A stretch of DNA of 53,247 nucleotides from Pseudanabaena sp. M085S1SP2A07QC (GTDB taxonomy: Bacteria; Cyanobacteriota; Cyanobacteriia; Pseudanabaenales; Pseudanabaenaceae), in assembly GCA_020404895.1 (NCBI GenBank), contig JADBWK010000109.1, forward strand, positions 1-53,247, given 5' to 3'. Each line of letters opens with the position of its first letter. Position 1 is the stretch's first letter. A program made the translations under genes and the position numbers. Shown one piece after another: positions 29,327 through 53,247 of this stretch. The notes under the pieces were generated by a model that saw nothing but the letters and a program-made list of their open reading frames with translations, did no database searches and was not told the origin of the DNA.

Positions 29327-29429
29327 ATACCAATTCACAAAAGTGTGACTACACTTCTGTGAATTAAAAAACAAACCCTGTAAGGGTTTTAAAAACACAA
29401 AATGGCGTAGCCATTTTGTGTTTTGGTAT
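29327..29429. repeat. Composite three-hairpin element, reverse copy
   Basis: Ends ATACCAA / TTGGTAT. The order is TTCACAAAAGTGT hairpin, AAACCCTGTAAGGGTTT, AAACACAAAATGGCGTAG palindrome: the inverse of 25004-25112. It reaches the stop codon of the next (minus-strand) gene. Confidence 0.82.
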
Positions 29430-52578: not shown

Positions 52579-52642
52579 GTATAACGCTCCGGTTCAGCGG
52601 CGAACCGCGCAGCGGATCGTCCGCTGCAACCGGTTGTTAGCC
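52579..52642 (-). repeat. attC-like recombination site
   Basis: On the minus strand the order is GGCTAACAA, arm CCGGTTGCAGCGG, a variable tip, arm CCGCTGAACCGG, then AGCGTTATAC. The arms pair with one unpaired base in the first arm. The TAACAA and GCGTTA boxes are the classical attC ends. Confidence 0.76.
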
Positions 52643-53110
52643 GATCGGCCCATAAACATCTTTCATTCAACAAACGGCGAATCCAAGTCAGTCGCCAGCA
52701 CCAGCACATCGGGATCGTCATTAAATATGGCTATGAGGTCACCATGTAACTTGACTGCCGCTTCGCGGACTCCAGTGTCGATGAACCGAAATTTCCGCCA
52801 ACTCCAAACGCGGTCTTGACCTGCTCCATCTGTCACGTACAGATCCAGGTGCCCATCATCACACTCTTGCCCGTAGATGCACACGCCGAAGGTGCATGGG
52901 AACCCTGCCAACTCGACCCACCAACCCCAATCCTCGCAGCAGCAAAACGGTGCGTCGTACCCGTACTCCCGCAGCCTGCTGACCAGATACTCCGCGAGTG
53001 CTTTGCCATACATACCTTCGTTGACAAGTTCCTCAGCCTCGCCAGGAAGAATCGGAAATTTTGCGGAGCTGACGCGGATGAATGTCCCCATTTGGCCTCC
53101 ACTAGGCTAA
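52585..53110 (-). mobile_element. Single integron-type gene cassette
   Basis: On the minus strand the 526-bp unit starts TTAGCC after a G, contains one ORF and ends in an attC-like site. The leading GTTAGCC (53111-53105) is exactly complementary to the attC R'' box GGCTAAC (52642-52636), as expected for a cassette that once circularised. The unit is GC-richer than its surroundings. No integrase gene is in the window. Confidence 0.72.
52663..53091 (-). CDS. Integron-cassette hypothetical protein
   Basis: The 142-residue protein starts 20 bp inside the cassette (MGTFIRVSSAKFPILPGEAE) and ends 20 bp before the attC site. Distinctive blocks are GYDAPFCCCEDWGWWVELAG and FGVCIYGQECDDGHLDLYV, rich in Trp, Cys and acidic residues, with an alpha/beta look. 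I recall similar unnamed proteins in environmental integron cassettes and immunity-type proteins, but cannot check. Codon use is GC-richer than in neighbours and HIP1 sites are absent, in line with transfer. Confidence 0.75.
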   Translation of the reverse strand: MGTFIRVSSAKFPILPGEAEELVNEGMYGKALAEYLVSRLREYGYDAPFCCCEDWGWWVELAGFPCTFGVCIYGQECDDGHLDLYVTDGAGQDRVWSWRKFRFIDTGVREAAVKLHGDLIAIFNDDPDVLVLATDLDSPFVE

Positions 53111-53150
53111 CTAGTAAGTTGAACCGCAGCAGCTACGCTACGCGGTTAAC
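53105..53150. repeat. Second partial attC-like inverted repeat
   Basis: GGCTAAC (53105) is followed by TTGAACCGC and, after 14 bases, GCGGTTAA (53142-53149). The arms differ by one base as in attC sites, but no clear outer box is seen on the far side. The final ~100 bases of the window are AT-rich again and hold no recognised gene. Confidence 0.45.
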
Positions 53151-53247
53151 GGGTTTTCGTTTTGTCGGTTCCAACGAAAAGTTCTTTTGCTGCACTTTTA
53201 GGATTTTATCATATGATGTCAAGACCTTATTGAAGTGCTGTCAATAG

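Follow-up and report, generated by a model that had tools for sequence, protein, structure and literature searches.

A short chromosomal cassette array in Pseudanabaena, at a site that carries other cassettes in sister species and is probably served by an integrase encoded elsewhere

The stretch of DNA considered here, referred to below as the window, is the entire 53,247-nucleotide contig C12 in a 4.81-Mb, 190-contig assembly of Pseudanabaena sp. M085S1SP2A07QC, and close to its end lies a unit with the appearance of an integron gene cassette. An earlier note on the window described this unit as a lone cassette in the chromosome, with a single attC lacking an integrase. The question raised by the locus is whether the unit is a solitary insertion or part of a system in which cassettes are captured at particular sites. 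It is concluded with considerable confidence that the region is a short chromosomal cassette array, in which cassettes have most likely been exchanged by an integron integrase (IntI), probably one acting from another locus. In minus-strand orientation, the terminal part of the window presents an ORF-less cassette, the gene cassette and a conserved non-coding element in that order, followed by a flanking gene on the plus strand. The features are as follows.

53111-53247, minus strand: ORF-less cassette that precedes the gene cassette; the contig ends 2 bases before it is complete, and the full form, G|TTCTATTG...CTAG, is ~139 bp in sister species
53105-53187, minus strand: attC that ends the ORF-less cassette; covariance model R2 gives it 24.6 bits (E=0.005)
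52585-53110, minus strand: complete gene cassette of integron type, 526 bp; it starts at G|TTAGCC and its last base is the G of GTTATAC in its attC; both ends are G|TT crossover points
52663-53091, minus strand: cassette ORF, 142 aa, with GGAGG 5' of the ATG; no Pfam or NCBIfam family
52579-52642, minus strand: attC of the gene cassette, with R'' GGCTAAC and extrahelical bases; its R', GTTATAC, comes from the next element; 52.1 bits
52463-52584, minus strand: conserved non-coding element that closes the array on its downstream side, beginning TTATACCGAA
51867-52241, plus strand: conserved chromosomal flanking gene for a 124-aa membrane protein; it follows the array in genomes G017, G008, G019 and G010

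The bounds of the gene cassette had been placed correctly in the earlier note, as had the presence of an ORF, which reads on the minus strand, and the leading GTTAGCC is indeed the exact reverse complement of the cassette's own R'' box. The observation that the cassette is GC-rich is also sustained, since its GC content of 56% compares with 43% for the window and is reached nowhere outside the region by sliding windows of 525 bp (mean 43.1%, sd 3.8%). The absence of HIP1 sites that had been reported alongside it is real but uninformative: only 0.8 sites are expected in a sequence of this length, so their absence carries no weight.

Because the covariance model used for the genome-wide search (R1) included the window sequence, a second model (R2) was built from 16 attC sites, all taken from other genomes. 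In a search of 0.29 Mb, R2 assigns 52.1 bits to the attC of the gene cassette (E=6.9e-10) and 24.6 bits to that of the ORF-less cassette (E=0.005), both E-values being rough owing to short calibrations of the models. The attC-like end recognized in the earlier note is thereby recovered with a model free of this genome. The R'' and R' ends of the site are paired and it folds into an imperfect hairpin, for which the fold z relative to shuffled sequences is about -4 on either strand (0 of 200 shuffles). A search of the region against Rfam returned weak sub-threshold matches alone, none of them an attC model. The proposition that the site is a misread chance hairpin, a terminator, a transposon end or an assembly join is given next to no probability. 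The one thing that can be said for it is that strong hairpins are frequent in bacterial DNA, whereas the E-value of 7e-10 from an independent model and the fold statistics speak against it, and no terminator-like site was detected. Furthermore, G017, G008, G019 and G010 join the same downstream flank, at the same base, to differing attC sites, which counts against it as well.

The second attC is longer and weaker than the first, and the same site also scores on C43, C142 and C45 of this genome and in G017. It had been described earlier as a half-formed site at 53105-53150 which might have received the cassette; the presence of a neighbouring attC is upheld, but the site is full, extends to 53187, and ends the preceding ORF-less cassette. 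The sequence of this cassette (140-141 bp) is identical on C12, C43 and C142, and copies with 77%, 99% and 89% identity are found on C45, in G017 and in G006, respectively. An interpretation of 53105-53247 as an attI or a fixed leader was rejected, because the copy on C45 comes after an attC-like end and before a terminal element, and the copies in G017 and G006 begin at a G|TT of their own. The same ORF-less cassette heads an array with five attC sites on C43 (L020, 1-3011), the cassettes of which we take, by eye, to be GNAT-like and glyoxalase-like. Expression of the cassette gene may be driven by the ORF-less cassette. The latter resembles the promoter cassettes without a gene described from Vibrio and from integrons of oral metagenomes (PMC11014356, PMC6557892) in being short, in having an attC and no ORF, and in lying upstream of gene cassettes; it differs from them in giving no match to the sigma-70 consensus when scanned, which leaves the name of promoter cassette unsupported by that scan. 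Promoters of such cassettes are not predictable in silico (PMC11014356).

On its other side, the gene cassette abuts the terminal non-coding element, a sequence of ~122 bp that starts with TTATACCGAA or TTATGCCTAA and is found in 25 of 26 genomes of the genus, with 1-40 matches in each. Most copies begin directly behind the G of an attC or an attI; some have an attC of their own, and many others have none at their end. In G023, the sequence forms the body of 217-bp ORF-less cassettes which stand in tandem beside an integrase, and for this reason the view of the element as the mere empty right flank of an attI was refined. The possibility that it encodes a small conserved peptide was discarded, because the only plausible frame is interrupted by in-frame stops in 20 of 29 scorable copies. 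The membrane protein encoded by the gene beyond it is, as far as can be judged by eye, presumably DoxX-like. With an attC-bearing cassette upstream and a cassette-like element downstream, the gene cassette is not the lone one that had been proposed.

The strongest indication that the locus is a place of cassette capture is provided by its counterparts in G017, G008, G019 and G010, four sister species of the same genus in which this chromosomal site is found again, flanked in the same way and filled with unrelated cassettes. Among these species the upstream flank, which spans ~2.09 kb and includes an oxidoreductase gene, is 90-93% identical, and the downstream flank is 91-94% identical; identity is 95-97% for the terminal element and the flanking gene, and in G010 a diverged copy of the element adjoins the flanking gene. 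The stretch between the flanks measures 0.8-3.4 kb and differs in content from species to species: G017 has the ORF-less cassette of the window (99%), another ORF and a gene that is trehalose-phosphatase-like by eye, G008 has one 208-aa ORF, G019 has several ORFs, and G010 has two stretches. Every 5' junction reads ATAAG|TT and every 3' junction reads CG|TTATACCGAA, and this, as judged from the sequences, is the pattern left when cassettes are swapped site-specifically at a single position. The earlier suggestion that the cassette was inserted by recombination is borne out by this comparison with relatives, which shows other occupants in four species, as well as by the clean G|TT at both junctions of the cassette.

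The sequence that precedes the 5' junction in the sister species adjoins the oxidoreductase gene and shows homology to the attI next to the G019 integrase (alignment score 63.5, compared to a maximum of 50.5 among shuffles; 0/1000). No integrase is present at the site in any of the four species. The integrases of G019 and G010 lie on other contigs, the G008 genome yielded none, and G017 retains only broken fragments, the longest of which has 94 residues and contains a stop. The cassettes of these species may have been exchanged before the loss of a local integrase, and not in trans.

These orthologous sites also bear on the lone-cassette reading of the earlier note, in the form of an off-target insertion at a site which is neither attI nor attC. 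Insertions of this attG type by IntI1 have been described (Loot et al. 2024, as cited in PMC12901181), and the window has only one strong attC; what the locus has in common with such insertions, and with single attC sites that lack an integrase, is a cassette lying outside a demonstrated complete integron. The receiving site here, in contrast, is not an unrelated genomic sequence but an array that contains att sites. Upstream of the cassette there is a neighbour with an attC, downstream of it a cassette-like element, and the orthologous sites hold arrays and attI-like sequence. An off-target insertion is regarded as very improbable.

The statement that neither an integrase nor an array is present, as it was made for the window, is true of those 53 kb, but it does not extend to the genome, where a search for intI and for further attC sites found both. 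Two integron integrases exceed the cut-off of 265 bits for NCBIfam TIGR02249, one on C82 (432 bits; L016, 9151-9999) and the other on C21 (422 bits; L017, 9474-10322). Both are open over 283 residues and are cut at the 5' side by the contig ends, because of which their matches begin at profile position 32 and the first 31 positions are missing. The segment of the C82 integrase that we take to be integron-specific is YPNAARDWHWQYIFPS, and residues which are presumably the R-K-HxxR-H-Y set can be read in the integrase sequence. Integrase remnants occur on C45 and C41, and there is an apparent N-terminal remnant on C109; the C45 locus (L018, 6432-6560; L155) shows synteny with the G019 locus, where the integrase is intact, but of its own integrase no more than an N-terminal part is left. 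With R1, 15 attC matches were obtained on nine contigs: the start of C43 has five, C12 and C142 have two each, and the remaining ones are on C131, C101, C15, C109, C175 and C45. In nine congeners that were examined in the same respect, the counts range from 1 (G003) to 73 (G023). A reading of the locus as an attC site in a genome without an integrase is contradicted by these results.

The nearest named integrase relative comes from Pseudanabaena sp. CAN_BIN31 (82% identity over 94 aa). In a tree of 95 sequences, 27 cyanobacterial integrases form one clade (support 97/93), while both integrases of the present genome, together with that of G019, fall inside a largely proteobacterial clade (100/91), and this position suggests that they were acquired horizontally.

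According to the preferred explanation, the array consists of the ORF-less cassette, the 526-bp gene cassette and the cassette-like terminal element, and occupies a chromosomal site long used in the genus for cassette capture, a site which in the sister species keeps its attI-like sequence without an adjacent integrase. Cassettes were most likely exchanged by IntI through recombination, at G|TT, between an attC and either an attI or another attC, and the integrase acting on the array is probably encoded at another locus. We infer that the integrases of C82 and C21 are active and work in trans on the array of the window.

The location of the integrase relative to the array is a part of this explanation on which the state of the assembly bears. 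The contig stops inside the ORF-less cassette, and the assembled part of the array excludes the upstream flank. An attempt to locate the upstream side by means of the sister-species flank failed: this genome has no copy of the oxidoreductase gene, and C144 carries the genes that lie beyond it, in a different context. Since the oxidoreductase gene is absent, the upstream side differs from that of the sister species, and it could hold an integrase. It is conceivable, and rather unlikely, that the integrase of C82 or C21 sits directly past position 53247, beside the array, as in a cis integron. C82 and C21, as well as C12, C43 and C142, share an identical stretch at their ends and each stop about 141 bp into it, in the manner of an assembly interrupted by a repeat. 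These breaks would be accounted for by a missing repeat contig on which the integrase 5' end lies together with the attI and the ORF-less cassette; the absence here of the gene found upstream in the sister species points in the same direction. On the other hand, the site lacks an integrase in four sister species, where the attI-like sequence adjoins the oxidoreductase gene, and the pairing of the contig ends is incomplete, there being three downstream ends for two integrase ends. The cis arrangement is a variant of the preferred explanation and does not compete with the cassette reading; the likelihoods assigned to the two overlap for this reason.

A broader proposal can be made tentatively: that the genus possesses a dispersed platform of attI-bearing array sites without integrases, which are spread over the chromosome and common to several species, to which one or a few integrases supply cassettes in trans, one of them horizontally acquired and of proteobacterial type, and whose ends are marked by the non-coding element. 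The element, which occurs at 1 to 40 or more copies per genome, might in this case serve in regulation or recombination. This is possible, though the balance of probability is against it.

Among described systems, the locus resembles two more. Like a CALIN, it is an attC-bounded cassette array (two attC sites in the window) with no integrase seen adjoining it, and its position is kept across species, as is the case for the CALINs of Xanthomonas (PMC12444791); unlike a CALIN, it has an attI-like site at its upstream end in the sister species, and its own contig ends at 53247, with an integrase possible beyond. With sedentary chromosomal integrons, in which multiple intI genes and pseudogenised copies are common (PMC2426708), the genome shares chromosomal intI genes and attC cassettes, and its sister species an attI-like sequence at the head of the array, but its cassettes are scattered over many small loci, and its integrases group with proteobacterial IntI outside the main cyanobacterial clade. 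The array is one of several in a multi-locus chromosomal integron system, and its integrase most likely lies elsewhere. The earlier remark that integrons are rarely reported in cyanobacteria is weak, since integrase genes above the cut-off are present in 23 of 58 genomes searched, cyanobacteria have been listed as integron-bearing since at least 2008 (PMC2426708; also PMC8618304), and a taxon-specific Cyanobacteria attC class is part of an existing tool (PMC12444791). Among the open-licence papers found, none is devoted, judged by title or abstract, to the integrons of Pseudanabaena. Both integrons in cyanobacteria and cassettes without an ORF are already known; what is less ordinary is the attI-bearing array without an integrase and the non-coding, cassette-like element in 25 of the 26 genomes. 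The site offers a cyanobacterial case in which the flanks are constant, the cassettes differ in every species examined, and the integrase is elsewhere or broken, and with it the evolution of an array in trans, without an integrase of its own, becomes testable in cyanobacteria that are grown in the laboratory.

The 142-aa cassette protein matched no family in Pfam or NCBIfam, and searches of plasmid and phage collections found no relative; the sole match to a viral contig was set aside as an 18-residue fragment. Among 386 cyanobacterial genomes, matches occur in only two others, G358 (58% identity over 133 residues) and G348 (a short match), and no attC was found adjoining either of them. A decayed relative of the cassette gene lies on C15 of the same genome (L236, 3328-3646), with an attC directly after it, and from this it appears that the family arrived as a cassette at least twice in this genome. 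Together with the ORF-less cassettes, the protein enlarges the stock of cassettes to which no function is assigned. Elsewhere in the window, positions 29327-29429 hold a ~105-bp repeat with around 40 copies in the genome at 83-94% identity, which is probably an ordinary dispersed repeat.
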